From a virus, in the IMG/VR virus record IMGVR_UViG_3300047320_000035, positions 1-50,727 of that record: 50,727 nucleotides of DNA; one strand, given 5' to 3'. The notes below the pieces were generated by a model. That model saw only the letters and a list, made by a program, of their open reading frames with translations, was not told the origin of the DNA and did no database searches. Below are positions 4,142 to 49,228 of the stretch, one piece after another. Each line of letters starts with the position of its first letter. The stretch's first letter is position 1. The position numbers and the translations under genes were made by a program.

Positions 4142-5623
4142 ATGGCTGACACCAGCCCAGTGACGCTGGCGAAGGAACTCCTCGCCATCCTCGATCGCGA
4201 CGAGCACCGTCTCCAGCGGATCGACAACTTCATCCGCGGCCGGCACGACGACCCGTACATGCCGCCCCAGGCGGACGACGAGTACAAGCTGCTGGCCAAG
4301 CGTGCGGTGTCCAACTGGATGCCCCTGCTGATCGGGACGCCGGCCCAGGCCCTGTACGTGGACGGCTTCCGGCCGGGCACGTCCAGCTCGGGCCTGCCCC
4401 AGGCGTCGTCCTCGACGAGCCCGGCCTGGTCGCACTGGCAGCGTTCGCGCATGGATGCGCGGCAGGCCGCGGTCTACCGGGGCGCCCTCGGCTTCGGTCA
4501 CTCCTTCGTGCTGACGGAGAAGACGAAGAAGGGCGTGGTCTCCAAGGGTCTGTCGGCGAAGAAGACCGCGGCCCTGTACGAGGACCCCGCGAACGACGAC
4601 GACCCGTACGCCGCGCTGACGATCACCGTGTTCCCGAAGGGCGACAAGCCGGGCAAGGCCCGGATGTTCGACGCCCGCTACGAGTACGCGGTGTCGTTCG
4701 CTTCGATCTCCGACCTCGACTCGGTCAGGGTCGGCGGCCGGAAGCTGCACGGCTCGACCGAGTGCCCGGTCACCCGGTTCGCGGCCCAGGTCGACCTCGA
4801 AGGCCGCACGGTCGGCGTGGTCGAGCCGATGATCCCGCTTCAGAACCGGATCAACCAGACGATCTTCGACCTCCTGGTCGCGCAGACGTACACCTCGCAC
4901 GAGGTGCGGTACGCGACCGGCATGGCGCCGCCCCTCCAGATGGAATTGCTGGACGAGGCCGGCCAGGTCACCACCGATCCGGCGCTCGCGGTCGACACCC
5001 GGCCCAAGCTGGACGCGGCCGGCAACCCGATGCCGGCTCCGGTCAACCACAATGCGCGCCGGTTCCTCTTCGCCGAGGACCCCGACGTGAAGTTCGGCAG
5101 CCTGCCGGCCGGGCCGATCACTCCGCTGATCGAGTCGGTCGACATGAGCATCCGGCACCTGGCCGCGATCAGCCAGACCCCGCCACACCACCTGCTGGGT
5201 CAGATCGCCAACCTGTCCGCCGAGGCCCTGCTCGCCGCCGAGACGGCGCTGAGCCGGAAGATCACCGAGTTCCAGTCTCTCTTCGGAGAGGCGTGGGAGC
5301 GGGTGTTCCGGATCGCCGCGGAGATGGAAGGCGACACGGCCGGCAACGAGGACTACGCGGGCGAGGTCCAGTGGCGTGACATGGAGTCGCGCTCCCTGGC
5401 GCAGGCCGCTGACGCGCTCGGCAAGCTCGCCGACCAGCTCGGTATCCCCAAGCGTGGTCTGTGGAAGCGGGTGCCCGGTGTGACGCAGACCGAGTACGAG
5501 GACTGGGAGCAGATGGCCGAGGAGGACGACTCCGTTGGCCAGCTCGCTACCGCGTTGACGCGGGCCACCCCGTCCACCGACACGATCCCCGCTTCACCTG
5601 ATGGCGGGGTGGTCGCCGCGTGA
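4142..5623 (+). CDS. Portal protein
   Basis: A 493-residue SPP1 gp6-like portal, the dodecameric ring through which DNA enters the capsid. Recognised from the N-terminal IDNFIRGRHDDPYMPPQADDEYKLLAKRA-type region (shown only in part), the conserved PLIGTPAQALYVDGF, the central PLQNRINQTIFDLLV and the C-terminal SQTPPHHLLGQ/LSAEALLAAETAL helices. It starts at ATG after AAGGTGGTGAGG. Its stop overlaps the next gene. Confidence 0.92.
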   Translation: MADTSPVTLAKELLAILDRDEHRLQRIDNFIRGRHDDPYMPPQADDEYKLLAKRAVSNWMPLLIGTPAQALYVDGFRPGTSSSGLPQASSSTSPAWSHWQRSRMDARQAAVYRGALGFGHSFVLTEKTKKGVVSKGLSAKKTAALYEDPANDDDPYAALTITVFPKGDKPGKARMFDARYEYAVSFASISDLDSVRVGGRKLHGSTECPVTRFAAQVDLEGRTVGVVEPMIPLQNRINQTIFDLLVAQTYTSHEVRYATGMAPPLQMELLDEAGQVTTDPALAVDTRPKLDAAGNPMPAPVNHNARRFLFAEDPDVKFGSLPAGPITPLIESVDMSIRHLAAISQTPPHHLLGQIANLSAEALLAAETALSRKITEFQSLFGEAWERVFRIAAEMEGDTAGNEDYAGEVQWRDMESRSLAQAADALGKLADQLGIPKRGLWKRVPGVTQTEYEDWEQMAEEDDSVGQLATALTRATPSTDTIPASPDGGVVAA

Positions 5624-10242: not shown

Positions 10243-10983
10243 GTGGCACTGAACGACAACGCCACCCTCGTCATCGGCTCCGGCAACTACCTGACCGCCC
10301 CGGTCGGTACCGACATCCCTGCCGACCTGCTCGTCCCGACGTCCCCCTGGGAGGCCGTGGGTCACACCAGCCTGGAGGACATCTTCTCGATCTCCTCCGA
10401 GGGTGGCGAGGCCACCGTCATCGGCTCGCTCCAGAACAAGTCGCTGCGCACCAAGTACAGCGCGCGGACCGAGACCATGACGTTCACGCTCCAGCAGTTC
10501 GACGTCCCCGGCCTGAAGCTGTACTACGGCTCCAACGCTCCCGTCCTGCCGGACGGTTCGGTCGGCGTCCCCTCCGACCCGACCCCGACCACGGCCGCGT
10601 TCCTCGCGGTGTTCGTGGACGGCGACAACCACTTCGCCTTCTACGCCCCGAAGGCCGAAATCTACCGAGCGGACGACGTGTCCTTCGGTGACACCGAGTC
10701 CCTGGCCGGCCTGCCGATCGGCGTGAAGCCGATGGCGTACGGCAACAACTCCTGGACGTACTCGATCACGCCGCTTGGTGCAAGTGTCGCGACCGGTGCG
10801 ACCGCCGGCTCGCCGGGCTCCTTCACCCCGGACGGCTCCATCGCGCCGGCCAACCTGGCTGCGATGGCCAACGTCATCGCGACGCCGACCACGGCCTGGA
10901 CCAGCGGCCAGTACGTCACCCTGGGCGACGCCTCCAAGGCGTACTGGGACGGCGACTCCTGGGCGGCCGGCCAGGCTCCCTGA
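10243..10983 (+). CDS. Major tail tube protein
   Basis: A 246-residue tube subunit. The core (about 1-180) has a tail-tube-like pattern with LEDIFSISSEGGEATVIGSL and TETMTFTLQQFD. A Gly/Ala/Thr-rich linker precedes a short C-terminal segment with TTAWTSGQYVTLGDASKAYW, like small carbohydrate-binding or Ig-like decorations. GTG start after AAGGAGAA. A motif copy (GTGCAAGTGTCGC) lies inside the gene at 10778-10786. Confidence 0.88.
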   Translation: MALNDNATLVIGSGNYLTAPVGTDIPADLLVPTSPWEAVGHTSLEDIFSISSEGGEATVIGSLQNKSLRTKYSARTETMTFTLQQFDVPGLKLYYGSNAPVLPDGSVGVPSDPTPTTAAFLAVFVDGDNHFAFYAPKAEIYRADDVSFGDTESLAGLPIGVKPMAYGNNSWTYSITPLGASVATGATAGSPGSFTPDGSIAPANLAAMANVIATPTTAWTSGQYVTLGDASKAYWDGDSWAAGQAP

Positions 10984-11003
10984 TCCGACCTCGGTCTGAT
11001 CTT

Positions 11004-11044
11004 CCCCGGTGTGTAAGTGGTGCGGACCTCCTTGCACACCGGGG
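11004..11044 (+). promoter_or_regulatory. Hairpin enclosing the GTGTAAGTG motif, after tail tube gene
   Basis: CCCCGGTGTG (11004-11013) pairs perfectly with CACACCGGGG (11035-11044) around a 21-base loop starting with TAAGTGG. The motif GTGTAAGTG at 11011-11019 straddles the stem-loop junction. It is the third such motif hairpin in the structural operon and again borders a gene for a very abundant protein. No T-run follows. Confidence 0.55.
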
Positions 11045-11113
11045 GCCCTTCGGGGCTTCTCGTTCGACGGTCCGCGCTCTGTTCCCCCCTACAACTTGGA
11101 GGTCCGCAACCCC

Positions 11114-11455
11114 ATGGCCACGTTCTCTCTCGACTCCATCCGTGCCGCTGCCGAAGCGAAGTACGGCTCGACCGACATCGACCTCGGCGACGGCTTCACC
11201 TGCCGGCTGCTCAACCCGCTGCGCCTGCCGAAGGAGAAGCGCGCCGAGCTGCTGAAGATCCAGGACAAGCTCGACGGCGAGGACGCCGACCAGGAGCTGG
11301 TGCTCGCGGACGCGATCCGCCTGATCGCCGAGAACGAGAAGGCCGGCGAGGCCCTGCTCGCCGCGGTTGGCTCCGACCTCGCGCTGCTCGCGCAGATTTT
11401 CGCCACGTACAGCGAGGGCACGTCGGTGGGGGAAGCCTCGGCCTCGCAGAGCTGA
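11114..11455 (+). CDS. Tail assembly chaperone, short form
   Basis: A 113-residue upstream tail assembly chaperone located between the tail tube and tape measure genes. It contains FTCRLLNPLRLPKEKRAELL and a Leu/Ala-rich helical C-terminus. ATG start at 11114. Near its end it carries GTG GGG GAA GCC, with the heptamer GGGGGAA at 11428-11434, which allows -1 slippage into the downstream frame to make the longer chaperone. Confidence 0.85.
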   Translation: MATFSLDSIRAAAEAKYGSTDIDLGDGFTCRLLNPLRLPKEKRAELLKIQDKLDGEDADQELVLADAIRLIAENEKAGEALLAAVGSDLALLAQIFATYSEGTSVGEASASQS

Positions 11456-41035: not shown

Positions 41036-41053
41036 GCGCTACCTCCTCTCGTC

Positions 41054-41115
41054 TGGCTGCCATCATCAGGACCGAGGCGCCACCCTCGGCCGACCTCCTT
41101 CCGGAGGTTTCGGCA
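41054..41115 (-). ncRNA. Type II hammerhead ribozyme A
   Basis: On the minus strand: helix II UGCC/GGCA; GAAA; helix III ACCUCC-GGAA-GGAGGU with a GNRA loop; cleavage triplet GUC with the cut between 41092 and 41091; helix I GGCCGAGG/CCUCGGUC closed by GUGGCG; core CUGAUGA (41063-41069) followed by one extra U. Loop UGGC can pair with GCCA at 41054-41057. It sits between the genes at 41129 and 41035, with the operator motif just 5' and the ribosome-binding site just 3'. Confidence 0.85.
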
Positions 41116-41128
41116 TGTCACACTTGCA

Positions 41129-41368
41129 CTACTCGGGCTGCTTCTCCTCTCGGGCGAGCGCGTCCTCCAGCTCCGCGAGCAGGCTCCCGAGGTCGCCGTG
41201 CGAGTCGTTCCAGGCGTCGTAGCTGTGCTCGTCGTACGCCTCGTAGGAGTTGCCCTCCTTCAGCTCCCCCTCGTCGTCGAGGAATTCCTGGATGCCGGCC
41301 TCGCGCTCGTCGTACGCCTCGCGGTAGCGGGCCAGGATCTCCTGCACGGTCTCGGGCTGCTCACTCAC
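41129..41368 (-). CDS. Acidic hypothetical protein
   Basis: A 79-residue, very acidic, helical protein (EAYDEREAGIQEFLDDEGEL, LAELEDALAREEKQPE). Charge resembles DNA-mimic or adaptor proteins of phage early regions, though no family is evident. GTG start overlaps the upstream stop. The operator motif overlaps its stop codon. Confidence 0.6.
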   Translation of the reverse strand: MSEQPETVQEILARYREAYDEREAGIQEFLDDEGELKEGNSYEAYDEHSYDAWNDSHGDLGSLLAELEDALAREEKQPE

Positions 41369-41577
41369 TGCTCAGTTCCTCTCTCGATGACGCGCGCTCC
41401 GTAGCGGCGGGTGTTGACGTAGGTGAAGACGTTCTGGGTGGCGGCCTTGTCCAGGCTCCGCCAGTCGCCGGCCTCCTTGTGGAGGCGGGTCTGTCGCTTG
41501 TCCAGGAGCTCGATCTCCGTACCGTCTGGCAGTTCGTCGAGCTCGCGGATCTTTCCGATGCGGTTCAACTTACACAC
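41365..41577 (-). CDS. Small hypothetical protein starting in the motif
   Basis: A 70-residue basic protein (LNRIGKIRELDELPDGTEIE, VFTYVNTRRYGARVIER). The GTG at 41577 follows the upstream TGA directly, and its first codons (GTG TGT AAG TTG) are the operator motif itself; TTG 41568 is an alternative. No ribosome-binding site is seen, so translation probably depends on coupling. Confidence 0.55.
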   Translation of the reverse strand: MCKLNRIGKIRELDELPDGTEIELLDKRQTRLHKEAGDWRSLDKAATQNVFTYVNTRRYGARVIERGTEQ

Positions 41578-42168
41578 TCACGCCGCGATGTGCAAGTGGG
41601 GCTCGACCAGGTTGGCGACGCCCTCCAGCTTGTCGTGCAGGTCGACCACCGATCCGTCGTTGATCAGGTGGTGGTCGAAGTCGTAGTCGTCGAGCGACGT
41701 CTCGCTGACGTGGGCTCGGCCGTACTTGTCCTTGGCCGGGCCGACGCCGGGACGGTCCACTCGGATCAGGATGCCGCCGCGGGCACGGATCGCGTCCGCC
41801 TCGTTGGGGAACCGGCAGTCGGTCACCACCAGGGCAGGCGCGTCAGCGTGCTGGTTCAGCAGGGCATCCACCCACACGTTCTGGCCGAGCACGTCGCGGC
41901 CGGCCTCCGTGCCAGCACGCTGGAGCAGGGCCCGCACCTCGGGGTACGTCACCTTCGCGTAGTCCCACCCGGTGCGGTCGATCAGGGTCCGCAGTCGCAG
42001 GTTCCCGGCGCCGTAGTGGCCGGGGATCAGGGGATTCAGGGCGTAGAGGAAGTCCTTCAGCTTGTCGGCGAAGGCCGCCTGCCTCCAGCCCCTGGTGACC
42101 AGCACGTTGGCCGCCTCGTTCTTACCGGACCTCGCGTAACCCGCGAGTCCGATGATCAGATCACTCAC
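41578..42168 (-). CDS. Deoxynucleoside monophosphate kinase
   Basis: A 196-residue P-loop kinase that phosphorylates dNMPs for phage DNA synthesis. Walker A is GLAGYARSGK (residues 7-16); later ALVVTDCRFPNEADAIRARG is the family's nucleotide-binding strand and helix, as in T4 gp1-like kinases. It fits with ThyX, dCMP deaminase and the reductase. GTG start overlaps the upstream gene. Confidence 0.85.
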   Translation of the reverse strand: MSDLIIGLAGYARSGKNEAANVLVTRGWRQAAFADKLKDFLYALNPLIPGHYGAGNLRLRTLIDRTGWDYAKVTYPEVRALLQRAGTEAGRDVLGQNVWVDALLNQHADAPALVVTDCRFPNEADAIRARGGILIRVDRPGVGPAKDKYGRAHVSETSLDDYDFDHHLINDGSVVDLHDKLEGVANLVEPHLHIAA

Positions 42169-42436
42169 TGTCGGTGTCCTTCGGGTAGTCAGGGAAGATC
42201 AGGTCGGCGTAGTCGTCAGCGTCCGGCCCACAGCAGCACGGCTTCCAGTAGGTCTCCCGGATCTCCTCGGCGGCGTCACGCTTGGCGGCGCGCACCAGGT
42301 CTTCGAGCTGGCGCTTGCGCTCCTCGTACTCCTCGCCATACACGCCGCCCAGGATGTTGGCCAGGGCCACCTCGACAGTCGGCGCCCAGCGCAAGCGCCC
42401 GTCCGCGTACTCCCAGCCGTCTTTGTCCCGCGCCAT
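42161..42436 (-). CDS. Hypothetical protein with CCC cluster
   Basis: A 91-residue acidic protein (DKDGWEYADGRLRWAPTVEV) with a YWKPCCCGPDADDYADLIF segment near the C-terminus. ATG start overlaps the upstream stop as TGATG. Three adjacent cysteines may hold a metal. No family known. Confidence 0.55.
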   Translation of the reverse strand: MARDKDGWEYADGRLRWAPTVEVALANILGGVYGEEYEERKRQLEDLVRAAKRDAAEEIRETYWKPCCCGPDADDYADLIFPDYPKDTDSE

Positions 42437-42771
42437 CAGGCGGCCACCGCCTCGAAGTAGAACTCCTGGTTGACCTCGCCGGCACGGACCAGCTCGCCCT
42501 CCAGGTGGGAGAACTCTCGGTCCACGGTCACCGCGGTCGACTGCACGCGGGCCCGGCCCTCGACGAAGGCGATGCCCAGGTCGGTGATGGACCACCTCTG
42601 CTCGGTCTCGCGCTGGGCCAGGCCGAACCAGGCCAGCTTGGCGAACACCGCGTACTCCGGGTTGGTCAGGTCCAGCTCGTCACGCTTCAGGGCCTGGCCT
42701 CCGTGCAGGTACAGCTTGCCCAGGCCGGCGACCTCGGACTTGCCCAGGCGGTAGCGCTTCTCGATGCTCAC
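42436..42771 (-). CDS. Hypothetical protein, possible winged helix
   Basis: A 111-residue protein. LTNPEYAVFAKLAWFGLAQR followed by RWSITDLGIAFVEGRA resembles a winged-helix domain where the ITDLG strand-helix is typical. The remainder is beta-rich. GTG start. It is the first gene downstream of hammerhead B. Confidence 0.5.
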   Translation of the reverse strand: MSIEKRYRLGKSEVAGLGKLYLHGGQALKRDELDLTNPEYAVFAKLAWFGLAQRETEQRWSITDLGIAFVEGRARVQSTAVTVDREFSHLEGELVRAGEVNQEFYFEAVAA

Positions 42772-42788
42772 TGTGTGGTCCTCTCGTC

Positions 42789-42852
42789 ATGGCTGCCATC
42801 GTCAGGAGGTGGGAGCCACCCCACCCCGACCTCCCTTCAGGAGGTTTCGGCA
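42789..42852 (-). ncRNA. Type II hammerhead ribozyme B
   Basis: Helix II UGCC/GGCA; GAAA; helix III ACCUCC/GGAGGU with UGAAG loop; GUC, cut between 42828 and 42827; helix I GGGGUGGG/CCCACCUC, changed at most positions from unit A yet still paired; loop GUGGCU; core CUGACGA (42799-42805) plus an extra U. Loop UGGCU pairs with AGCCA just after helix II. Located between genes at 42868 and 42771. Confidence 0.85.
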
Positions 42853-42867
42853 CACTTGCACACTGGG

Positions 42868-43599
42868 TCAGGCACTCAGGGCCTGACGACGTCCACCCAC
42901 CTGGGTCTGGCCGAGGTTGGCGCGCTCCCCCGCGGCCCGGCCGTCACGCCAGCCGGTGCCGGTCAGTCGGCGACGGGGCGCGGTCTTCAGCTTGGGGTGG
43001 GCCCGCTTGAAGAACTGCTCGACGGCCGCCTCACGCTTCACCAGGACCAGCTCGGCACCCACCGTGCCATGCTCGGCGGACTCACGCACCGCACTCTCCT
43101 CGGCCTGGTCCAGGCGGCGGCGCACCGAGCTGGAGAAGCCGGCCATCCAGCTCTTGCGGTAGGCGGTGGTCGACTCGCCGTACTGGGGGCGGCCCTTGGC
43201 CATGCCGTTCAGGGCCTGGAGCTGGAGCGAGCTGAACAGCATCTCGATGCGGTCGAGCGTGGACTCGTGGGCGTACACCCGCACCTTGCGGTACCGCTTG
43301 CCGGTCGCGTAGTCCGTCAGGCTCCAGTACACGTTCTGTGCACCGAGGGCGTGGGTGATGGAGAACAGCAGGGCCGCGCGGTCCGGGACGTACTTGCCCT
43401 TGATGTCGAAGCTGCGGGAGGTGATGTTGTCCGTCTCCGGGCGGGCCTCGGCCAGCATCGCCTGCTCGACGCCGTACTTGGACATCAGGGCGGCGGCCTT
43501 CGCGAAGTACGCCTCGGCCTCGTCGGGGTGAGCGGCCGGGTCCTCGGCCTTGGCGAGCAGCGCGCGGATCTTCGCGATCTTCGAGTTGGTCTCGGTCAT
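42868..43599 (-). CDS. DUF2786-domain protein
   Basis: A 243-residue protein with the DUF2786 signature at its start: KIRALLAKAEDPAAHPDEAE followed by AYFAKAAALMSKYGVEQ. The middle third (TLDRIEMLFSSLQLQALNGM) is a second conserved-looking domain and the C-terminus is basic (KTAPRRRLTGTGWRDGR). DUF2786 proteins are common in actinophages; function unknown. ATG start. Its 5' leader contains hammerhead C. Confidence 0.75.
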   Translation of the reverse strand: MTETNSKIAKIRALLAKAEDPAAHPDEAEAYFAKAAALMSKYGVEQAMLAEARPETDNITSRSFDIKGKYVPDRAALLFSITHALGAQNVYWSLTDYATGKRYRKVRVYAHESTLDRIEMLFSSLQLQALNGMAKGRPQYGESTTAYRKSWMAGFSSSVRRRLDQAEESAVRESAEHGTVGAELVLVKREAAVEQFFKRAHPKLKTAPRRRLTGTGWRDGRAAGERANLGQTQVGGRRQALSA

Positions 43600-43618
43600 C
43601 TCAGCACCTCATGTCGTC

Positions 43619-43682
43619 ATGGCTTGGCATCGTCAGGGCGTGGGCAGCCATCCCGCGCCGACCTCCTTCCGGAGGTTTCGCC
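43619..43682 (-). ncRNA. Type II hammerhead ribozyme C
   Basis: Helix II GGC/GCC; GAAA; helix III ACCUCC-GGAA-GGAGGU; GUC, cut between 43660 and 43659; helix I GGCGCGGG/CCCACGCC with one C-A mismatch; loop AUGGCUG; core CUGACGA (43630-43636) plus an extra U. Loop AUGGCU pairs with AGCCAU downstream (6 bp). It precedes the DUF2786 gene. Confidence 0.85.
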
Positions 43683-43698
43683 TTGCTTCACTTGCACA

Positions 43699-44133
43699 TC
43701 ACGACGTTTCGCGGAACCCGTCGAAGCAGTAGATGTAGGAGGTGTCGCCGACCTGGGCCCAGCACAGCCGGTGGCCCCAGACGGTGCCGTAGTAGTCGCG
43801 CTTGGCCTTCTTGTTGGCCGCCTCCCACGCCTTGCGCTTGGCCGGGTCGTTGAGCTTCGGGTTCAGGTAGACGACCTTGCCGGTGCGCTCGACGTAGTAC
43901 GAGTAGCCCTTGCCGTTCCCGCGCTTGGCCGCGTCCCAGTAGCAGTCGCGGTCGTCGAAGTCGTCAGCGCACGGTCGCGTCGGGATGTGGAACACGGGGA
44001 TGTACTGCTTCTGCACGATCGGCCGAGTCGGACGGGCCGGGCTGTCGGAGGCCGAGGCCGGCGAGTTCCAGGTCAGGGAGCCGAGCAGGGCCAGGGCCAG
44101 GAAGGTCAGCAGGTGCTTCGCGGTGGTCTTCAT
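43699..44133 (-). CDS. Secreted early protein
   Basis: A 144-residue protein with a clear signal peptide: KTTAKHLLTFLALALLGSLT and cleavage probably after ASA (residue 28). The mature part is basic with four cysteines (C55, C64, C124, C136), suggesting two disulfides outside the membrane. An exported phage protein expressed early or in lysogeny may alter the cell surface or exclude other phages; this is inference. ATG start with GAGGAGA upstream. It overlaps the gene ending at 43964. Confidence 0.7.
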   Translation of the reverse strand: MKTTAKHLLTFLALALLGSLTWNSPASASDSPARPTRPIVQKQYIPVFHIPTRPCADDFDDRDCYWDAAKRGNGKGYSYYVERTGKVVYLNPKLNDPAKRKAWEAANKKAKRDYYGTVWGHRLCWAQVGDTSYIYCFDGFRETS

Positions 44134-44398
44134 TGGTGGTCTCCTCGTCGTCGAACCAGGGCGGGCCCTGGTGGTTGGGGTCGTGGGGTGCGTAGATGTA
44201 GGACTTCAAGATGGGGGTCTCGCCGGGCGGCGCCTGGCGGTAGATCCACGCCTGCCGGTAGACGTCGGCCAGCAGGGCGACTCCCCACTTGACCATCTGG
44301 CTGTAGCTCAGACCGGCGATGCGCAGGGTCCTGATGTGGCGGACCAGCTCGGGGTCGACCCGTGCACTCAACTGGCGGGGGAAGCGGGGCAGACTCAC
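43964..44398 (-). CDS. Ribbon-helix-helix-like protein with run-on C-terminus
   Basis: A 144-residue frame. RQLSARVDPELVRHIRTLRI followed by LSYSQMVKWGVALLADVYRQ resembles a ribbon-helix-helix DNA-binding fold. The last 56 residues overlap the secreted-protein gene in another frame and are Pro/Ala-rich, so the biological C-terminus may simply be a run-on. GTG start overlaps the preceding stop. Confidence 0.55.
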   Translation of the reverse strand: MSLPRFPRQLSARVDPELVRHIRTLRIAGLSYSQMVKWGVALLADVYRQAWIYRQAPPGETPILKSYIYAPHDPNHQGPPWFDDEETTNEDHREAPADLPGPGPARLPDLELAGLGLRQPGPSDSADRAEAVHPRVPHPDATVR

Positions 44399-44628
44399 GC
44401 GGCGGCCAACTCCTCCAGCATCTCGGTACCCCAGTCGGTGACGTCGCCGTCCCTGGTCAGGTAGCCCGCGTGGATCAGCTCGTTGGCCGTGCGGCCGTAG
44501 GAACCCTGGAGGGTCCAGGCCATGCCGCTCTTGACGAGCAGGCCGAACAGGTCCAGCGTCTCGCTCGCGCTGAGCTCGCCCTGCTCGAAGCTGATGAGGT
44601 CGATCGCGATGTCCTTCATGCGTCCCAT
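44395..44628 (-). CDS. Small protein, DUF7417-like
   Basis: A 77-residue protein with GELSASETLDLFGLLVKSGM followed by AWTLQGSYGRTANELIHAGY, a pattern I associate with the DUF7417 family widespread in actinophage early regions (from memory). ATG start. Its stop overlaps the ribbon-helix-helix-like gene. Function unknown. Confidence 0.6.
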   Translation of the reverse strand: MGRMKDIAIDLISFEQGELSASETLDLFGLLVKSGMAWTLQGSYGRTANELIHAGYLTRDGDVTDWGTEMLEELAAA

Positions 44629-44631
44629 CGG

Positions 44632-45045
44632 TCAGCCCTTCTGGATCTCGGTGAGCAGGGCGGAGACCAGGCGGAAGGCGATCGTGAAGAGCGCCAGCTC
44701 GGCCCATCCTGCGAGGGTGTCGTTGTTGGGGGTGCCGTCCTTGCGGAGCTGCTCCAGCTCGCGGTATCCCCCGAGCTCGACGAACTCGCGCCACATCAGG
44801 TCCGGGTCGGAGTTCGGCGCGTTGTCGGCCACCGAGTCCTGGATGGACTCGCGGTGCTCCTCGGCCGCCTCGGCGAGGGTGATCTCGTACGCCTTCGCGC
44901 GGAGCTGGACGGCGTAGATCGTCTCGCGGGTGACCTTGTCGAGGAGCGCCGCTCCGTCTCCGTTCGGGTCGTCCGGGGCGTGCGCCCCAGCGAGCGTCGC
45001 CAGGTGGTACGAGTTGTACTTCCGGATGCCGTCGATCGTGGTCAT
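44632..45045 (-). CDS. Hypothetical protein
   Basis: A 137-residue protein with a charged helical middle (YEITLAEAAEEHRESIQDSV) and a hydrophobic C-terminal helix (WAELALFTIAFRLVSALLTE) that could touch a membrane. ATG start after GAAGGTGT. It is the first gene after hammerhead D and an upstream promoter. Confidence 0.6.
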   Translation of the reverse strand: MTTIDGIRKYNSYHLATLAGAHAPDDPNGDGAALLDKVTRETIYAVQLRAKAYEITLAEAAEEHRESIQDSVADNAPNSDPDLMWREFVELGGYRELEQLRKDGTPNNDTLAGWAELALFTIAFRLVSALLTEIQKG

Positions 45046-45063
45046 GTGCTACACCTTCACATC

Positions 45064-45122
45064 GGGTGTCATCGTCAGGACCGGGAACCCCTCCCGGCCG
45101 ACCCCCTTCCGGGGGTTTCGAC
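45064..45122 (-). ncRNA. Type II hammerhead ribozyme D
   Basis: Helix II GUC/GAC; GAAA; helix III ACCCCC-GGAA-GGGGGU; GUC, cut between 45100 and 45099; helix I GGCCGGGA/UCCCGGUC; loop GGGGU; core CUGACGA (45072-45078) plus an extra U. Loop GGGU pairs with ACCC at 45064-45067, while most other units use UGGC/GCCA, so both sides of the pseudoknot changed together. Only this unit has U-A as the middle pair of helix II. Confidence 0.85.
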
Positions 45123-45134
45123 TTCATGTGAGTC

Positions 45135-45163
45135 ACAGTATCACATCGGTCACACTTGCACAA
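45135..45163 (-). promoter_or_regulatory. Leftward promoter overlapped by operator motif
   Basis: On the minus strand: TTGTGC (45158-45163) as -35, 17-base spacer ending TGTGA, TACTGT (45135-45140). The motif GTGCAAGTG (45153-45161) covers the -35. Transcription would begin just before hammerhead D and the gene starting at 45045. Confidence 0.6.
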
Positions 45164-45167
45164 TCAG

Positions 45168-45575
45168 TCAGCCGTAGCGGACCTCGTCGAAGCAGGCGAT
45201 CTGGATGATGGCGTCCGCGGCGTCGGCGTCGATGTGCCCGGCCTCGATACCCTCGTCGGTCCTGTCGCGCCAGGCGTCCAGGATGTAGCCGTGGATCTCC
45301 CCGTTCACGTACTCCTGGCCGGGGTCGAGCAGCTTGGCGAAGGCCCGGCGGATGTCGTCCTTGCTCAGGTAGTTGACCGAGTCGACCTCCCGCCCACCAA
45401 AGGGGAAGTCGTCGACACCTTCGACGATGGTGTACTCCTTGTCGGTCGGCTTCCCCGCGAACTCCTCCTCGGTGGGCTGCGTGGCCCAGTACGTGATGCC
45501 TCCGTACGACGCGGTGTCGACGATGTCCTGGACGTTCTGGTCGGTGATCCGGTTCAGGATGGACTGCACGATCAC
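45168..45575 (-). CDS. Hypothetical protein
   Basis: A 135-residue acidic protein (QDIVDTASYGGITYWATQPT, YNGEIHGYILDAWRD-like centre, DADAADAIIQIACFDEVRYG). The GITYWA and DAD/DAIIQ pattern is frequent in actinophage early proteins of unknown function. GTG start with AGGAGACAG upstream. Confidence 0.6.
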   Translation of the reverse strand: MIVQSILNRITDQNVQDIVDTASYGGITYWATQPTEEEFAGKPTDKEYTIVEGVDDFPFGGREVDSVNYLSKDDIRRAFAKLLDPGQEYVNGEIHGYILDAWRDRTDEGIEAGHIDADAADAIIQIACFDEVRYG

Positions 45576-45600
45576 GGGACTGTCTCCTCGGGTGTGAGTG

Positions 45601-45741
45601 TCAGGCGTTGGCGGTGATACGGAGGACGGCCGGGGCCTCGTACTTCTTCTGGCGGATCTCCCGACGAGCCAGGGTGGTCGCCTTGTCCTTGCGGCGGGAG
45701 TCACGAACGTTGCTGTCGAGGTCGCGGAACTTGGGGGTCAC
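45601..45741 (-). CDS. Small basic protein
   Basis: A 46-residue, strongly basic frame (MTPKFRDLDSNVRDSRRKDK, LARREIRQKKYEAPAVLRIT). GTG start with AGAGGAGACAG upstream, the same leader type as its neighbours, and located directly downstream of hammerhead E. It could bind nucleic acid. Easily overlooked by length. Confidence 0.6.
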   Translation of the reverse strand: MTPKFRDLDSNVRDSRRKDKATTLARREIRQKKYEAPAVLRITANA

Positions 45742-45759
45742 TGTCTGTCTCCTCTGCGT

Positions 45760-45822
45760 ATGGCCTGGCTCATCAGGGCGGGGGCTGCCATCCCTCGCCG
45801 ACCCCCCGAAGGGGGTTTCGCC
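45760..45822 (-). ncRNA. Type II hammerhead ribozyme E
   Basis: Helix II GGC/GCC with G10.1 directly after the core (no extra U); GAAA; helix III ACCCCC-UUCG-GGGGGU, a UUCG tetraloop instead of GNRA; GUC, cut between 45800 and 45799; helix I GGCGAGGG/CCCCCGCC with one A-C mismatch; loop AUGGCAG; core CUGAUGA (45770-45776). Loop AUGGC pairs with GCCAU at 45760-45764. Confidence 0.85.
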
Positions 45823-46038
45823 TCAGTGCTTCAGTACCTCCTCGATCTCCCTGGTCAGGCCCTCGAAGCCGTCGTCGTCGCCGATCTCGGCGAGCTGGTC
45901 GTCCAGGTCTTCCCAGAGTTCGTCCTCGTCGAGCTCGGCCAGCTCCTCGACCGTCACGCCCTTGAGCTCGGCGAACTCCTCGTCTGTCAACTCCCGCTCG
46001 TGGGTGCTCACTTCGGTCCAGCGCAGGGTGTACGTCAC
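45823..46038 (-). CDS. Acidic hypothetical protein
   Basis: A 71-residue protein with a short beta start (MTYTLRWTEVSTHERELTDE) and a very acidic helical remainder (ELAELDEDELWEDLDDQLAE). It could be a DNA mimic or adaptor. GTG start after GAGGAGAC. Directly followed by hammerhead E. Confidence 0.55.
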   Translation of the reverse strand: MTYTLRWTEVSTHERELTDEEFAELKGVTVEELAELDEDELWEDLDDQLAEIGDDDGFEGLTREIEEVLKH

Positions 46039-46048
46039 GGGTGTCTCC

Positions 46049-46264
46049 TCACAGGCCGATCAGCTTGGACAGTTCGTCGATGGTCGGGACGGGCTGCAAC
46101 TCCCAGGGGAGGGCGGCCAGCAGGCCCTCGACCTGGTCGGCCAGCTCGCACAGCGTGTGCCACTCGGGGGTGCCGGGGTCCTGGTCCTCGCGCCACGCCT
46201 GCACCTCTGCGACCAGGTCACGCAGGCTGGTGGTGCGCTGCCGGATGTCCTTGCCGTTACTCAC
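46049..46264 (-). CDS. Hypothetical protein
   Basis: A 71-residue helical protein (TTSLRDLVAEVQAWREDQDP, WHTLCELADQVEGLLAALPW). GTG start overlaps the upstream stop. No family recognised. Confidence 0.55.
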   Translation of the reverse strand: MSNGKDIRQRTTSLRDLVAEVQAWREDQDPGTPEWHTLCELADQVEGLLAALPWELQPVPTIDELSKLIGL

Positions 46265-46608
46265 GCCGCCAGCCCCTCGACGTACTCGACCAGCTCGGCC
46301 TCGGTGAGCACGCGGCCCTCGTCCTCGGGGTCGCTCTCGTCGTACGTGAAGTGCAGGTCGTCGTCCTGGTCGCCGTGGGCGTGGCCAAGCAGCCAGCTCA
46401 CCGCGTCGTCCTTGTGTCCGGCCAGGGCCAGGGCGCGGGCGACCGCGTCCGCCTCCGAGCAGGTGAAGGCCGAACCGGTGTCGAAGGCGGCACCCCCGAG
46501 CGCGCTCGCCAGCTCAGCCAGGGCGTCGTTCAGGGCGTCGTGCTGGACCACCAGCGTCGGGGCCGGGGGCGTGGTCTTGCTCTTGCGGAACTTGCGGAAC
46601 AGGTTCAT
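46261..46608 (-). CDS. Hypothetical protein
   Basis: A 115-residue protein with a basic N-terminus (MNLFRKFRKSKTTPPAP), an Ala-rich helical middle (LNDALAELASALGGAAFDTG) and an acidic C-terminus. ATG start with GAAGGTGTAG upstream, the same leader as the gene at 45045. It follows hammerhead F. Function unknown. Confidence 0.6.
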   Translation of the reverse strand: MNLFRKFRKSKTTPPAPTLVVQHDALNDALAELASALGGAAFDTGSAFTCSEADAVARALALAGHKDDAVSWLLGHAHGDQDDDLHFTYDESDPEDEGRVLTEAELVEYVEGLAA

Positions 46609-46627
46609 CTGCTACACCTTCACACTG

Positions 46628-46689
46628 TGGCCTGCCATCATCAGGGCGTGGGCTGCCATCCCGCGCCAACCCCCGAGGGGGTTTCGGCT
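46628..46689 (-). ncRNA. Type II hammerhead ribozyme F
   Basis: Helix II GCC/GGC; GAAA; helix III ACCCC-CUCG-GGGGU; cleavage triplet GUU (H17 is U), cut between 46668 and 46667; helix I GGCGCGGG/CCCACGCC with one C-A mismatch; loop AUGGCAG; core CUGAUGA (46638-46644) plus an extra U. Loop UGGC pairs with GCCA at 46628-46631. It lies between genes at 46714 and 46608. Confidence 0.85.
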
Positions 46690-46713
46690 TGTCGTGTTGC
46701 GACACTTGCACAC

Positions 46714-47331
46714 TCAGACCTGCTTGTTGAACTCGGTTCCCCTCGTGGACGTCCCGACCAGGCGGTCACGCCACACCACCCAGGTCACCGACTGCACCAC
46801 CATGGGCAGTTCACCCAGCCGCTGGGCTGCCTCACGGAAGCAGTGGGCGATCAGGGCGTACCTGCCCTTGGCTCCGAGCCCGCGGTCCCGTGCCCCGTAC
46901 TCCTCGCCGACCGCGATGTCGTGGGCGTGCCGGTCGATGCACACCGCGTCCGCATCCGAGGGGTCGAGGATGCAGCGGTAGAAGTGGCCGGTCTTGCGGT
47001 CCATGGGCAGCACCTCCGCCGGGTCGGCACCAGCCAGGATCTTGGCTGCCTTGGCCAGCGCGTCGCCCAGGTGACCGGACGGCTTGCCCGTCTCGTACGC
47101 GCTCTTCGCGAGCTCGACGTTCAGGGGCCAGGCGGTCTGCGGGGACAGCGCGGCCAGCAGGCCGGCGCCTACGCGGACGTTGCCCTCGGTCATCATGTCG
47201 GCCACCTCGTGTGCCGTGCGGTACCACTGACGGCCGCGCATCTCCTGCCCACTGTCCGCCGCCTGCCACACGTCCAGGATGTTCTGGACGTACCGCTCGC
47301 GGGTCTTCGCGTCCGCCTTGATGTCGATCAT
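46714..47331 (-). CDS. Hypothetical protein, DUF7178-like
   Basis: A 205-residue protein. GLLAALSPQTAWPLNVELAK, KTGHFYRCILDPSDADAVCI and DRHAHDIAVGEEYG form a conserved-looking set that I associate with DUF7178 proteins of actinophages. The LSP..W..N and DRHA order recalls helix-hairpin-helix DNA glycosylases, but that is speculation. ATG start with GAGAGGCACC upstream. It follows hammerhead G. Confidence 0.55.
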   Translation of the reverse strand: MIDIKADAKTRERYVQNILDVWQAADSGQEMRGRQWYRTAHEVADMMTEGNVRVGAGLLAALSPQTAWPLNVELAKSAYETGKPSGHLGDALAKAAKILAGADPAEVLPMDRKTGHFYRCILDPSDADAVCIDRHAHDIAVGEEYGARDRGLGAKGRYALIAHCFREAAQRLGELPMVVQSVTWVVWRDRLVGTSTRGTEFNKQV

Positions 47332-47344
47332 GGTGCCTCTCCCC

Positions 47345-47425
47345 TGGCTGCATCATCAGGACCAGGCAGCCGCGCCTGGCCGACCAAGGGGGGCGAGTAG
47401 GGACTCACCTTCCCTCGGTTTCGCA
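47345..47425 (-). ncRNA. Type II hammerhead ribozyme G, extended helix III
   Basis: Helix II UGC/GCA; GAAA; helix III much longer: ACCGAGGG/CCCUUGGU (8 bp with one G-U), topped after a small bulge by GGUGAG/CUCGCC with UCCCUA loop; GUC, cut between 47382 and 47381; helix I GGCCAGGC/GCCUGGUC; loop GCGGCU; core CUGAUGA (47353-47359) plus an extra U. Loop GGCU pairs with AGCC downstream. Confidence 0.82.
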
Positions 47426-47485
47426 TGGAGGTCACACCGCCCCGACCGGACCCAAGCCGGCCGAGCGCGAGGTGTGGAGTGTGGA

Positions 47486-47587
47486 TCAGGCCCAGGCCAG
47501 CTCCCTGTAGAACCGGAACTCCTGGTCACTGCCCTCCCGGCGACGCCGGGCATCGAGCAAGACCTGATCTCCCCCAGTGATCTTCAT
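47486..47587 (-). CDS. Very small protein between two ribozymes
   Basis: A 33-residue frame MKITGGDQVLLDARRRREGS ending FRFYRELAWA. ATG start with GAGAGGACAAC upstream, matching the leaders of neighbours. It is the only coding sequence between hammerheads H and G, so it would lie alone on its processed RNA. The gap 47426-47485 shows nothing else. Confidence 0.55.
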   Translation of the reverse strand: MKITGGDQVLLDARRRREGSDQEFRFYRELAWA

Positions 47588-47629
47588 GTTGTCCTCTCGG
47601 ACTCTTGAGTTGTTGTTGTCCGACTCGCC

Positions 47630-47688
47630 TGGCTGGCTCATCAGGGACCGGGGACCACCCGGTCCGACCGGCTCTCGCCGGTTTCGCC
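47630..47688 (-). ncRNA. Type II hammerhead ribozyme H
   Basis: Helix II GGC/GCC, no extra U; GAAA; helix III ACCGGC-GAGA-GCCGGU with a GNRA loop; GUC, cut between 47666 and 47665; helix I GGACCGGG/CCCGGUCC, perfect 8 bp; loop UGGUC; core CUGAUGA (47638-47644). Loop UGGU pairs with GCCA downstream with one G-U. It is the cleanest single example of the family. Confidence 0.88.
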
Positions 47689-47689
47689 T

Positions 47690-47908
47690 TCAGTCCTTCC
47701 AGCCGTCCCACTTGTGGACGGCGACCGTGGTACCGGCCAGCCACACGGTCAGGGAGACCTCACCGTTGCCCCACTCCACCCGGCTGAACTCGTACTCCCT
47801 GGAGCCGATCTGGCGGTTGTGGTGGTGCACTCGGTCGCCCTTGTAGCGGGCCGAGCTGCGCATCCTGTACTCGTCGACGTCCGTACGCGGACCCATGGTG
47901 AAGCTCAT
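47690..47908 (-). CDS. Hypothetical protein
   Basis: A 72-residue basic, beta-rich protein (YRMRSSARYKGDRVHHHNRQ, EVSLTVWLAGTTVAVHKWDG). ATG start with AGAGAGGAAC upstream. The stop abuts hammerhead H. No family recognised. Confidence 0.55.
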   Translation of the reverse strand: MSFTMGPRTDVDEYRMRSSARYKGDRVHHHNRQIGSREYEFSRVEWGNGEVSLTVWLAGTTVAVHKWDGWKD

Positions 47909-47922
47909 GATCAGTTCCTCTC

Positions 47923-48162
47923 TCAGTTGGTGGCGTAGCCGCGCAGCTCGGCCAGGACGAACAGGCACTCGGTCACGGTGGTCAGGTCCGAGTAGTCGAT
48001 GTCCCACCCCTCGTCGTTCGAGATCCCCTGGAGCTGGGCCCGGAGGTCACCCACCGACGCGGGCAGGTACTCCGCGACGAGCTGGTCGAAGCGCTCGGCG
48101 GTGGTCTGGTACCAGCCGTGGCTGGTGATCCTCATCGCGATGTGACCGGACGGGGTCGGCAT
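47923..48162 (-). CDS. Hypothetical protein
   Basis: A 79-residue protein (MRITSHGWYQTTAERFDQLV, LTTVTECLFVLAELRGYATN). ATG start with CGAGAGGAACTG upstream. It is the first gene downstream of hammerhead I. Function unknown. Confidence 0.55.
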   Translation of the reverse strand: MPTPSGHIAMRITSHGWYQTTAERFDQLVAEYLPASVGDLRAQLQGISNDEGWDIDYSDLTTVTECLFVLAELRGYATN

Positions 48163-48188
48163 GGTCAGTTCCTCTCGGGGGGATTCGT

Positions 48189-48251
48189 GCGGCTGGCATC
48201 GTCAGGACCGGGGCACCACCCTCGGCCGACCGGCTTCCCGCCGGTTTCGCC
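48189..48251 (-). ncRNA. Type II hammerhead ribozyme I
   Basis: Helix II GGC/GCC; GAAA; helix III ACCGGC/GCCGGU with GGGAA loop; GUC, cut between 48228 and 48227; helix I GGCCGAGG/CCCCGGUC with one A-C mismatch; loop GUGGUG; core CUGACGA (48199-48205) plus an extra U. Loop GUGGU can pair with GCCGC downstream, using two G-U pairs. It lies just after a leftward promoter (48266-48294), near the 5' end of that transcript. Confidence 0.83.
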
Positions 48252-48265
48252 CTGCCGCTGATGCG

Positions 48266-48294
48266 ACAGTATCACACTGGCTACACTTACACAA
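48266..48294 (-). promoter_or_regulatory. Leftward promoter overlapped by operator motif
   Basis: On the minus strand: TTGTGT (48289-48294), 17-base spacer ending TGTGA, TACTGT (48266-48271), then CGC. The motif GTGTAAGTG (48284-48292) overlaps the -35. It would drive the genes from 48162 leftward, with hammerhead I in the leader. Confidence 0.65.
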
Positions 48295-48670
48295 CCAGGC
48301 TCATGAAGACCACGTCGGGCTCACCGGGCGTCCAGTTCGCGACCCGCTCCGTCTCCTGGAACCCGAACTGCTCGTAGTAGGCGGGCAGGAACCCGTCGAA
48401 GCAGTCCAGCTTCACCGCGTGCCGGTTGTTGATCGCGTCCCACACCATGTCCGTCCCGCGGCCCTTGACCGTGGAGAACAGACCGATCAGGGTGCCGTCG
48501 CTCGCCACACCGAACCCCGACTGGAAGTCGGCGGTCAGGTAGTACCGGGCGCCGCGCGGCATCTCCTCCGGCTTGCTGGTCGCGTCGGCGATCCTCTCCG
48601 AGCTCGACCTCGCCCAGTCCAGGGCGGCGGTGTACTCGGACCACGACGCGGGGTGCATGTAAACGGTCAC
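48287..48670 (-). CDS. GNAT-like acetyltransferase fold protein
   Basis: A 127-residue protein: SGFGVASDGTLIGLFSTVKG resembles the central GNAT strands, and KLDCFDGFLPAYYEQFGFQE the final GNAT motif that precedes a C-terminal strand. Similar proteins occur in phage early regions. The acetyl-CoA loop is weak, so activity is uncertain. GTG start after AAGGAGACTG. Its 3' end overlaps the promoter at 48.27 kb. Confidence 0.55.
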   Translation of the reverse strand: MTVYMHPASWSEYTAALDWARSSSERIADATSKPEEMPRGARYYLTADFQSGFGVASDGTLIGLFSTVKGRGTDMVWDAINNRHAVKLDCFDGFLPAYYEQFGFQETERVANWTPGEPDVVFMSLVV

Positions 48671-48693
48671 GGCAGTCTCCTTGAGACGTGAGC

Positions 48694-48752
48694 AGGCTGG
48701 CTCATCAGCGACCAGGTACCTCCTGGCCGGACGCCCCGCAGGGCGTTTCGCC
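48694..48752 (-). ncRNA. Type II hammerhead ribozyme J
   Basis: Helix II GGC/GCC, no extra U; GAAA; helix III ACGCCC-UGCG-GGGCGU; GUC, cut between 48730 and 48729; helix I CGGCCAGG/CCUGGUCG; loop AGGUA; core CUGAUGA (48702-48708). Loop AGGU pairs with GCCU downstream, an A-U pair replacing the U-A seen in other copies, which supports the pseudoknot. Confidence 0.86.
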
Positions 48753-48753
48753 T

Positions 48754-49059
48754 TCAGCTCCGGGGGGTTACGCGCTCCAGCACCTCCGGCTCGTACTTGG
48801 CGTGCCACTCCTCCCAGCACCCCTCCGAGCAGAAGTCCTCGTGCTTGCGGGTCGGGGTCCAGCACCCGTCGTTGTCGCACACGTCCGCCTCCAGGACGCT
48901 GCGCTGGTACTCGGCGTACCTCTTGGCCTCCACCTGGTGGGCCTGCTCGCCGAACTCCAGCCACAGGGCACGCAGGTTGTTCTGCCGGAGGCCGGCATTG
49001 ATCGAGGCACGGAGCCTGCCGTAGGCGATCGTTCCGCGGTCCTTGGTCAGCGACACCAT
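48754..49059 (-). CDS. Zinc-finger-like hypothetical protein
   Basis: A 101-residue protein with a helical N-terminal half (RASINAGLRQNNLRALWLEF) and a Cys cluster VCDNDGCWTPTRKHEDFCSE followed by GCWEEW, giving C-x4-C and C-x3-C. Probably zinc-binding. ATG 49059 is chosen after GAGAGGAAC; GTG 49062 is also possible. Hammerheads K and L lie in its leader and J just after its stop. Confidence 0.55.
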   Translation of the reverse strand: MVSLTKDRGTIAYGRLRASINAGLRQNNLRALWLEFGEQAHQVEAKRYAEYQRSVLEADVCDNDGCWTPTRKHEDFCSEGCWEEWHAKYEPEVLERVTPRS

Positions 49060-49083
49060 CACATGTTCCTCTCGGGTTTGAGC

Positions 49084-49144
49084 AGGCTGGCTCATCAGCG
49101 ACCGGGAACCACCCGGCCGGACCCTCCCTTCGGAGGGTTTCGCC
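49084..49144 (-). ncRNA. Type II hammerhead ribozyme K
   Basis: Helix II GGC/GCC, no extra U; GAAA; helix III ACCCUCC-GAAG-GGAGGGU (7 bp); GUC, cut between 49120 and 49119; helix I CGGCCGGG/CCCGGUCG; loop UGGUU; core CUGAUGA (49092-49098). Loop GGUU pairs with AGCC downstream with one G-U. It is the downstream member of a tandem pair; the pseudoknot strand of unit L ends four bases before unit K begins. Confidence 0.86.
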
Positions 49145-49148
49145 TTGT

Positions 49149-49212
49149 TGGGCAGGCTCATCAGCGCCGGGCTGCCCAGTCCCGACGAACCGCCCTTCCG
49201 GGCGGTTTCGCC
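49149..49212 (-). ncRNA. Type II hammerhead ribozyme L
   Basis: Helix II GGC/GCC, no extra U; GAAA; helix III ACCGCCC-GGAA-GGGCGGU; triplet GUU, cut between 49188 and 49187; helix I CGUCGGG/CCCGGCG with one U-G; loop containing UGGGCAG; core CUGAUGA (49158-49164). The loop is perfectly complementary over seven bases to CUGCCCA at 49149-49155, the longest pseudoknot in the family. First unit met by the leftward transcript. Confidence 0.86.
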
Positions 49213-49228
49213 TTGTCACACTTGCACA

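Follow-up and report, generated by a model that had tools for sequence, protein, structure and literature searches.

What natural hammerhead ribozymes do in bacteria and phages has been an open question since 2011, and it is raised here by a Streptomyces phage genome in which self-cleaving motifs appear to recur between the genes of one region. The window analyzed here is the complete 50,727-nt viral record IMGVR_UViG_3300047320_000035, from a phage close to Streptomyces phage Issmi (Arquatrovirinae). A preliminary description, based on the sequence alone, reported 12 type II hammerhead cores on the transcribed strand, one in every intergenic gap of more than about 70 bases in the leftward operon between 41.0 and 49.3 kb, and proposed that the array cuts the operon into units in a previously undescribed mode of phage mRNA processing and stabilization. 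We asked whether these motifs are genuine, whether related phages share them, and what their distribution suggests about their role.

To evaluate the motifs, as the preliminary description had suggested, the window was searched with the Rfam covariance models. This yielded exactly 12 hits at or above the gathering score, all to full-length RF02276 (Hammerhead_II), all on the minus strand between 41051 and 49213, with scores of 38.2 to 57.9 bits against a cutoff of 37 and E values of 1.8e-9 to 2.8e-4 against all of Rfam (Table 1). No further hits were found elsewhere in the record. Independently, we applied a parser requiring the invariant core (C3-U-G-A-N-G-A9, G12-A13-A14, the A15.1-U16.1 pair, and H17) together with three stems. 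It recovered the same 12 elements, none on the plus strand, and none in 20 Markov-simulated 50.7-kb sequences (about 1 Mb), arguing against chance matches, and it placed every predicted scissile bond at the position given in the preliminary description. All copies have the type II order, II5-GAA-III-H17-I-CUGANGA-II3, with stems I and III closed by loops and stem II open. The cleavage site triplet is GUC in 10 copies and GUU in 2, while N7 is U in 8 and C in 4. The bare motif CUGANGA is only slightly more frequent than expected (50 versus 32), so the evidence rests on the whole structure rather than on that motif.

Table 1. Positions of the predicted RNA elements and associated sites in the 50,727-nt window.
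Position	Strand	Element	Scissile bond	RF02276 score (bits)	Remarks
41051..41115	-	Type II hammerhead HH1	41092/41091	57.9	
42787..42852	-	Type II hammerhead HH2	42828/42827	50.2	
43617..43683	-	Type II hammerhead HH3	43660/43659	38.2	6-bp loop I-tail pseudoknot
45060..45123	-	Type II hammerhead HH4	45100/45099	46.4	Pseudoknot GGGU/ACCC; same junction as a tRNA-like element in phage Asten
45759..45823	-	Type II hammerhead HH5	45800/45799	42.1	
46626..46689	-	Type II hammerhead HH6	46668/46667	38.8	GUU site
47342..47426	-	Type II hammerhead HH7	47382/47381	52.4	Long stem III
47627..47689	-	Type II hammerhead HH8	47666/47665	51.2	
48187..48252	-	Type II hammerhead HH9	48228/48227	47.5	
48691..48753	-	Type II hammerhead HH10	48730/48729	41.0	
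49081..49145	-	Type II hammerhead HH11	49120/49119	50.1	Downstream member of the tandem doublet
49147..49213	-	Type II hammerhead HH12	49188/49187	48.9	Upstream member of the tandem doublet; GUU site; 5-bp pseudoknot
49120..49187	-	68-nt RNA predicted to be released between the tandem cleavage sites			67- to 70-nt equivalents in 6 relatives
41120..41129	-	GTGCAAGTGT stoperator-like site			Just upstream of HH1; sites near other hammerheads start at 42852, 43688, 45152, 46702, 48283, and 49218

Covariation supported the helices. Among the 12 copies alone, 97.9% of cells were paired and 11 of 16 pairs showed changes on both sides, giving a covariation score of 0.594 against a shuffle maximum of 0.231. 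Across 94 distinct reduced sequences, the score was 0.623, compared with a shuffle maximum of 0.192 and at most 0.125 for slid alignments. The loop I-tail pseudoknot, a usual but not universal feature of type II hammerheads, matched its own partner better than swapped partners: 76 of 129 distinct copies had at least 4 bp, against a maximum of 65 in 1,000 swaps, although several copies have only weak Watson-Crick pseudoknots. As a further point against functional ribozymes, seven of the 12 window copies carry an extra U between A9 and stem II. Minimum free energy (MFE) folding without the pseudoknot did not give the hammerhead for HH12 and gave an alternative for HH1, and because z-scores ranged from -3.5 to +0.5, folding energy was not used as support. 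Open reading frames and a direct reading of the strand showed that the gene gaps longer than ~70 nt between 41.0 and 49.3 kb are the gaps that hold hammerheads, with two in the gap at 49060-49228. The preliminary observation is therefore confirmed.

We next examined related phages. Fifteen named relatives carry 8 to 13 hammerheads each, and the core was found in 157 copies in 16 genomes, with variation only at the free N7 and at H17. Arrays of 7 and 4 copies were also present in other viral contigs. In contrast, five relatives from sister genera carry no hammerhead. Searching these hammerhead-free relatives with Rfam gave nothing over the cutoff, only weak matches to mascRNA (RF01684; E values of 0.24 to 0.26), but these led us to a ~45-nt tRNA-like element that occupies nearly every large gap, at 6 to 10 copies per genome. 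The element consists of a 5-bp acceptor-like stem stacked on a T-arm, as in tRNA, with a 6-bp T-stem and an invariant TTCGAG T-loop that fits the TTCRA loop of tRNA, with a short linker in place of an anticodon arm and no CCA. Its pairs are 100% maintained, 9 of 13 are changed on both sides, and its covariation score is 0.592, against 0.133 for shuffled and at most 0.088 for slid alignments. ARAGORN called one tRNA-Arg overlapping an element in phage Sitrop, but the absence of an anticodon arm argues that the element is not a tRNA gene. RNase P accepts minihelices and pairs with 3' RCC (PMC11221534). G+1 was present in 38 of 38 copies, A at -1 in 35 of 38, and a 3' ACU in most, although 11 bp and ACU differ from 12 bp and RCCA. 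One copy matched 129 phage records by BLAST, and arrays occur in many viral contigs, making the element a strong candidate for a new RNA family, whereas a scan of genomic contigs with a tight tRNA-like pattern gave a single hit, in Jiangella anatolica.

On a dNMP kinase tree, the split between phages with hammerheads and those with tRNA-like elements is one branch with 99/99 support. Single-linkage clustering of flanking genes chained unrelated open reading frames, and junctions were therefore compared by direct pairwise hits. In the direct same-junction case, window positions 45068 to 45122 correspond to a tRNA-like element in phage Asten, the upstream genes being 66% and the downstream genes 36% identical. 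In total, 20 tRNA-like elements follow a gene whose homologue is followed by a hammerhead. Furthermore, mixed arrays exist on one strand in other viral contigs, for example, a hammerhead between two tRNA-like elements in the contig designated L255.

Taken together, these data lead us, with fairly high confidence, to propose that the 12 elements are functional type II hammerhead ribozymes, most with the loop I-tail pseudoknot, that cut leftward phage transcripts between genes during or soon after transcription. In this view, each cut would leave the upstream mRNA ending in the stem III hairpin with a 2',3'-cyclic phosphate and the downstream mRNA beginning with the stem I hairpin flush at a 5'-OH, shortly before the ribosome binding site and start codon of the next gene. 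Sister genera would do the equivalent with the tRNA-like element, most likely cut on its 5' side by host RNase P. The product shared by both devices would be a downstream mRNA whose 5' end is buried in a helix, so the shared role is probably to uncouple adjacent genes and set defined, protected 5' ends. The structures, their covariation, location, and strand, their conservation across the clade, the replacement at orthologous junctions, and the mixed arrays are demonstrated by our analysis, while self-cleavage in the cell, which no RNA data yet support for any copy, the involvement of RNase P, and mRNA stabilization are inferred. The interpretation of the preliminary description is partly supported: the covarying type II hammerheads on the coding strand, present once or twice per sizeable gap, and the predicted cut sites between genes with a hairpin on each side hold, and the processing interpretation is strengthened by the unrelated element at equivalent junctions, but the claim that the idea was undescribed is not supported, a single transcript spanning all the sites is not shown, with promoter-like and stoperator-like sites lying inside several gaps, and stabilization of the products is an inference.

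A broader possibility, which we consider somewhat more likely than not, is that Streptomyces phages punctuate one region with either of two unrelated, interchangeable RNA-cutting devices, hammerheads or a previously uncatalogued tRNA-like mini-element cut by the host's RNase P, and that lineages swap one for the other, in places junction by junction, because what is selected is a cut that leaves the downstream mRNA with a helix-capped 5' end. Literature searches for phage tRNA-like operon punctuation found no earlier description, although most subscription papers lay outside their reach and the result is not proof of novelty. The replacement of one element by a structurally unrelated one, in a large, culturable group that includes R4 (hammerheads) and phiHau3 and Hydra (tRNA-like), is a natural experiment that points to RNA cutting between genes as the selected function.

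An alternative explanation, possible but less likely, is that each gap has its own promoter and that the hammerhead or tRNA-like element trims only a short 5' leader, so that every mRNA starts with the same helix-capped end without a long polycistronic precursor. Extended -10 motifs (TGTGnTAnnnT) lie 10 to 14 nt before the element in several gaps in both clades, with none antisense, which means that some hammerheads may only trim their own leader rather than split a long transcript, and stoperator-like sites sit in many gaps. However, only 2 of the 12 window hammerheads have the motif nearby, a sigma-70 scan found none, and many genes inside units overlap or abut, consistent with read-through transcription.

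The remaining alternatives appear very unlikely. The ribozymes could mainly make small circular or excised RNAs, with adjacent hammerheads releasing a ~68-nt RNA whose 5'-OH and 2',3'-cyclic phosphate ends can be ligated into a circle containing a complete hammerhead, and the tandem doublet with a 67- to 70-nt unit is conserved in 7 of 16 genomes with nearly identical sequence. Yet the other sites in the window are 284 to 1,736 nt apart and flank genes, the tRNA-like replacement has no such chemistry, and Perreault et al. looked for spliced or circular products and did not detect them (PMC3088659). Even less probable is conservation mainly as recombination or mobility points for gene cassettes, with cleavage incidental: gene content between elements differs among relatives while the elements persist, but the helices covary instead of keeping sequence identity, the opposite of a recombination site, the elements are on the transcribed sense only, and an unrelated RNA fold takes equivalent places. 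Similarly, although stems I and III are GC-rich hairpins between genes, noncleaving terminators or RNase barriers are improbable, since the elements have no U tract, the region has no minus-strand intrinsic terminator, and a mere hairpin does not need the conserved catalytic core. Our parser requires most of that core, but the Rfam model, which does not require it, finds nearly the same set.

The closest precedent is the clustered phage and prophage hammerheads of Perreault et al. 2011 (PMC3088659), which are likewise type II with a loop I-tail pseudoknot, occur several per phage region, and flank genes. Processing of long phage RNAs was already proposed for them and partly tested, with cleavage in vitro and, for one set, in E. 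coli. Here, what differs is the 8 to 13 copies per genome, conserved across a group of Streptomyces phage genera and occupying every large gap of the region, with a tRNA-like element replacing them in sister genera. Relative to the RF02276 model, about half of the window copies carry one extra nucleotide between A9 and stem II, which falls in an insertion of the model. The arrangement in the sister phages recalls tRNA punctuation of mitochondrial transcripts, in that a tRNA-like structure lies between genes of one strand and could be cut by RNase P, although the phage element is not a tRNA gene. Truncated tRNA-like folds also occur in mascRNA, which is processed by RNase P, and in the tRNA-like domain of tmRNA, but these belong to unrelated organisms or genes, and the phage element has a 5-bp acceptor-like stem and multiple copies per operon. 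Finally, the GTGCAAGTGT repeats, of which the window holds 23 against 2.1 expected, lie in the same gaps, are mostly oriented with transcription, and resemble the R4-type repressor-stoperator system, whose stoperators are documented in intergenic regions of this phage group (PMC10276819); the stoperator is a DNA-level silencing site, separate from the RNA elements that it sits beside.

The preliminary description claimed twelve type II hammerhead ribozymes on the minus strand between 41.0 and 49.3 kb, one in every sizeable gap of a leftward operon. To evaluate this claim, the window was scanned with covariance models (cmscan) against all of Rfam. Exactly twelve hits above gathering score were returned, all to RF02276 and all on the minus strand, between 41051 and 49213; no other family passed, and a more permissive search added only one chance match. 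A separate parser, which is independent of Rfam and demands the whole catalytic core plus three stems, found the same twelve, none on the plus strand, and none in 20 simulated windows. It placed every predicted scissile bond at the position originally proposed. Ten of the sites are GUC and two are GUU, while N7 is U in eight copies and C in four. Reading of the strand and of the open reading frame list showed that each gene gap longer than about 70 nt between 41.0 and 49.3 kb contains a hammerhead, and one contains two. In most copies, a ribosome binding site and start codon follow within a few tens of bases. The observation of twelve hammerheads is therefore confirmed.

Coordinates of the gaps, RNA elements, and neighboring motifs discussed in the text
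Sequence	Coordinates	Feature
Window	41036-41128	Gene gap with one hammerhead
Window	42772-42867	Gene gap with one hammerhead
Window	43600-43698	Gene gap with one hammerhead
Window	45046-45167	Gene gap with one hammerhead
Window	45742-45822	Gene gap with one hammerhead
Window	46609-46713	Gene gap with one hammerhead
Window	47332-47484	Gene gap with one hammerhead
Window	47588-47689	Gene gap with one hammerhead
Window	48163-48286	Gene gap with one hammerhead
Window	48671-48753	Gene gap with one hammerhead
Window	49060-49228	Gene gap with two hammerheads
Window	45068-45122	Hammerhead junction shared with a tRNA-like element in Asten
Window	49120-49187	RNA predicted to be released by the tandem doublet
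Window	412-50474	Range of the GTGCAAGTGT-type repeats
Window	about 45130-45150	Extended -10-like motif
Window	about 48255-48275	Extended -10-like motif
L255 (viral contig)	856-902	tRNA-like element
L255 (viral contig)	1913-1959	tRNA-like element
L147 (phage Sitrop)	4494-4576	Annotated tRNA-Arg overlapping a tRNA-like element
L178 (viral contig)	10850-11200	Closely spaced tRNA-like elements
L185 (viral contig)	2600-3050	Closely spaced tRNA-like elements
L269 (Jiangella anatolica)	5295-5341	tRNA-like element

The twelve copies differ in sequence but keep pairing: 97.9% of stem cells pair, and 11 of 16 pairs have changes on both sides. Across 157 copies in 16 genomes (94 distinct reduced sequences), the covariation score was 0.623, against a maximum of 0.192 in shuffles and at most 0.125 when the partner strand was slid. 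Because one stem boundary in our parser is chosen by pairing, the slid control matters more than the percentage paired. MFE folding alone was a poor guide to these structures. The pseudoknot between loop I and the tail after stem II, previously shown to be needed for fast cleavage (PMC3088659), is also under selection, since copies matched their own tail better than swapped tails (76 of 129 with at least 4 Watson-Crick pairs, against a maximum of 65 in 1000 swaps). About half the copies carry an extra nucleotide, usually U, between A9 and stem II, and in these stem II still covaries (GGC/GCC, GCC/GGC, TGC/GCA, GTC/GAC). A tandem hammerhead doublet is conserved in 7 of 16 genomes (the window and 6 relatives) and would release a nearly invariant RNA of 67-70 nt, a possible small circular RNA.

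The window, an IMG/VR virus record of 50,727 bp, is closest to Streptomyces phage Issmi (92% identity over 83% of the region; Caelumvirus, Arquatrovirinae), and 91 related Streptomyces phage records were present in the phage collection. Searching whole records with RF02276 gave 8-13 hits in each of 15 relatives. These lie in Caelumvirus, Sentinelvirus, Salutenavirus, Omarvirus, and Arequatrovirus (one, Zainub, has no genus in its record) and include the classical phage R4, with 9 hits. The hammerheads are not annotated in the records that we inspected. Hammerhead arrays of 7, 4, and 4 copies were also found in L068, L023, and L195, viral contigs not recognized as relatives of this phage.

In contrast, five relatives from Hautrevirus (phiHau3), Likavirus (Hydra, Asten), and Camvirus (Provolone, Sitrop) have no hammerhead at all, yet they have gaps of the same size. 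Reading those gaps revealed a repeated element in most of them, with the consensus A-GGGUG-ACCGGCAGxCA-CCnGGG-UUCGAGy-CCCnGG-CACCC-ACU. It comprises a 5-bp acceptor-like stem, a linker with a conserved GG, and a 6-bp T-arm with an invariant UUCGAG loop, with no anticodon arm and no CCA. There are 5-10 copies per genome by regular expression and 6-10 by covariance model, all on the coding strand. In 38 copies, every one of 481 pair cells is a standard pair, and 9 of 13 pairs show double changes, including a tertiary pair between linker base x and the last T-loop base y, seen as A-U, G-C, C-G, U-A, and G-U. The covariation score was 0.592, against 0.133 in shuffles and at most 0.088 when slid. 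A second set of 150 copies from other viral contigs gave 0.603, although that alignment was fitted to the model. Rfam has no family that matches the element, the nearest matches being weak mascRNA hits. In phage Sitrop, an annotated tRNA-Arg overlaps one copy and is probably a miscall by tRNA finders.

The ∼45-nt element occurs in arrays of 5-15 in Streptomyces phages and many viral contigs (sequences L138, L145, L146, L147, L148, L154, and others), and one copy of it matches 129 phage records, including 11 Mycobacterium phages. A further copy lies in the Jiangella anatolica genome, possibly in a prophage. In L178 and L185, from viral contigs of 60-98 kb, tRNA-like elements are closely spaced by long runs of irregular GGCAN-type repeats, unlike the operon context.

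To determine whether the two elements exclude each other, each model was searched against genomes carrying the other element. The tRNA-like model found nothing in 11 whole hammerhead genomes or in any hammerhead-phage locus, and RF02276 found nothing above cut-off in 22 virus records chosen for carrying the tRNA-like element. On a dNMP kinase tree, which is unrooted and so does not settle which state came first, hammerhead and tRNA-like genomes are separated by one branch (99/99). At one hammerhead junction of the window, both neighboring genes have homologs flanking a tRNA-like element in Asten (66% and 36% identity), and 20 tRNA-like elements follow a gene whose homolog is followed by a hammerhead in another phage. 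The two devices also occur in one array on one strand in other viral contigs. L255 has a pseudoknotted hammerhead between two tRNA-like elements, L208 and L241 share one arrangement of one hammerhead and several tRNA-like elements, and L195 has four hammerheads and one tRNA-like element. The hammerheads in L208, L241, and L195 score below Rfam's cut-off (27-32 bits for those detected), and Rfam does not report the one in L255; these assignments rest on the full-core parser.

From established hammerhead chemistry, each copy should cut after H17, leaving stem III at the upstream RNA's 3' end with a 2',3'-cyclic phosphate and stem I flush at the downstream RNA's 5'-OH end. For the tRNA-like element, the natural candidate enzyme is RNase P, which binds stacked acceptor and T stems, accepts minihelices, and pairs with a 3' RCC (PMC11221534). 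The element has G at +1 in 38 of 38 copies, A at -1 in 35 of 38, and ACU following the stem in most. RNase P would leave the upstream RNA without a terminal hairpin but would give the downstream RNA a 5' end locked in a helix. That product would be common to both devices, and we infer from this that 5'-end definition and uncoupling of neighboring genes is the shared function, with 3' protection an extra in the hammerhead lineage. The structures, their covariation, and their distribution among genomes and junctions are established from sequence, while cleavage by either route, the identity of the second enzyme, and the fate of the RNA products are inferred.

The data do not show that one transcript spans the sites, and an alternative is that some elements may trim local leaders. 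Stoperator-like GTGCAAGTGT sites number 23 in the window against 2.1 expected, are mostly oriented with local transcription, and often lie 5-6 nt before a hammerhead; they are probably R4-type stoperators, which are already known in this group (PMC10276819). In addition, an extended -10-like motif, TGTGnTAnnnT, lies 10-14 nt before some elements in both clades. Sites of both kinds lie in some of the gaps.

We found no description of the tRNA-like element or of the replacement in the literature that we could search, which excluded most subscription journals. Clustered hammerheads in prophages, and the idea that they process phage mRNA, were published in 2011 (PMC3088659). The interpretation in the preliminary description is partly supported, but its proposal that the array is an undescribed way of processing phage mRNAs is not supported. 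Relative to those clusters, the array reported here is a new and apparently much larger instance, and it is the comparison with the tRNA-like relatives, more than the count of twelve, that makes the finding valuable.
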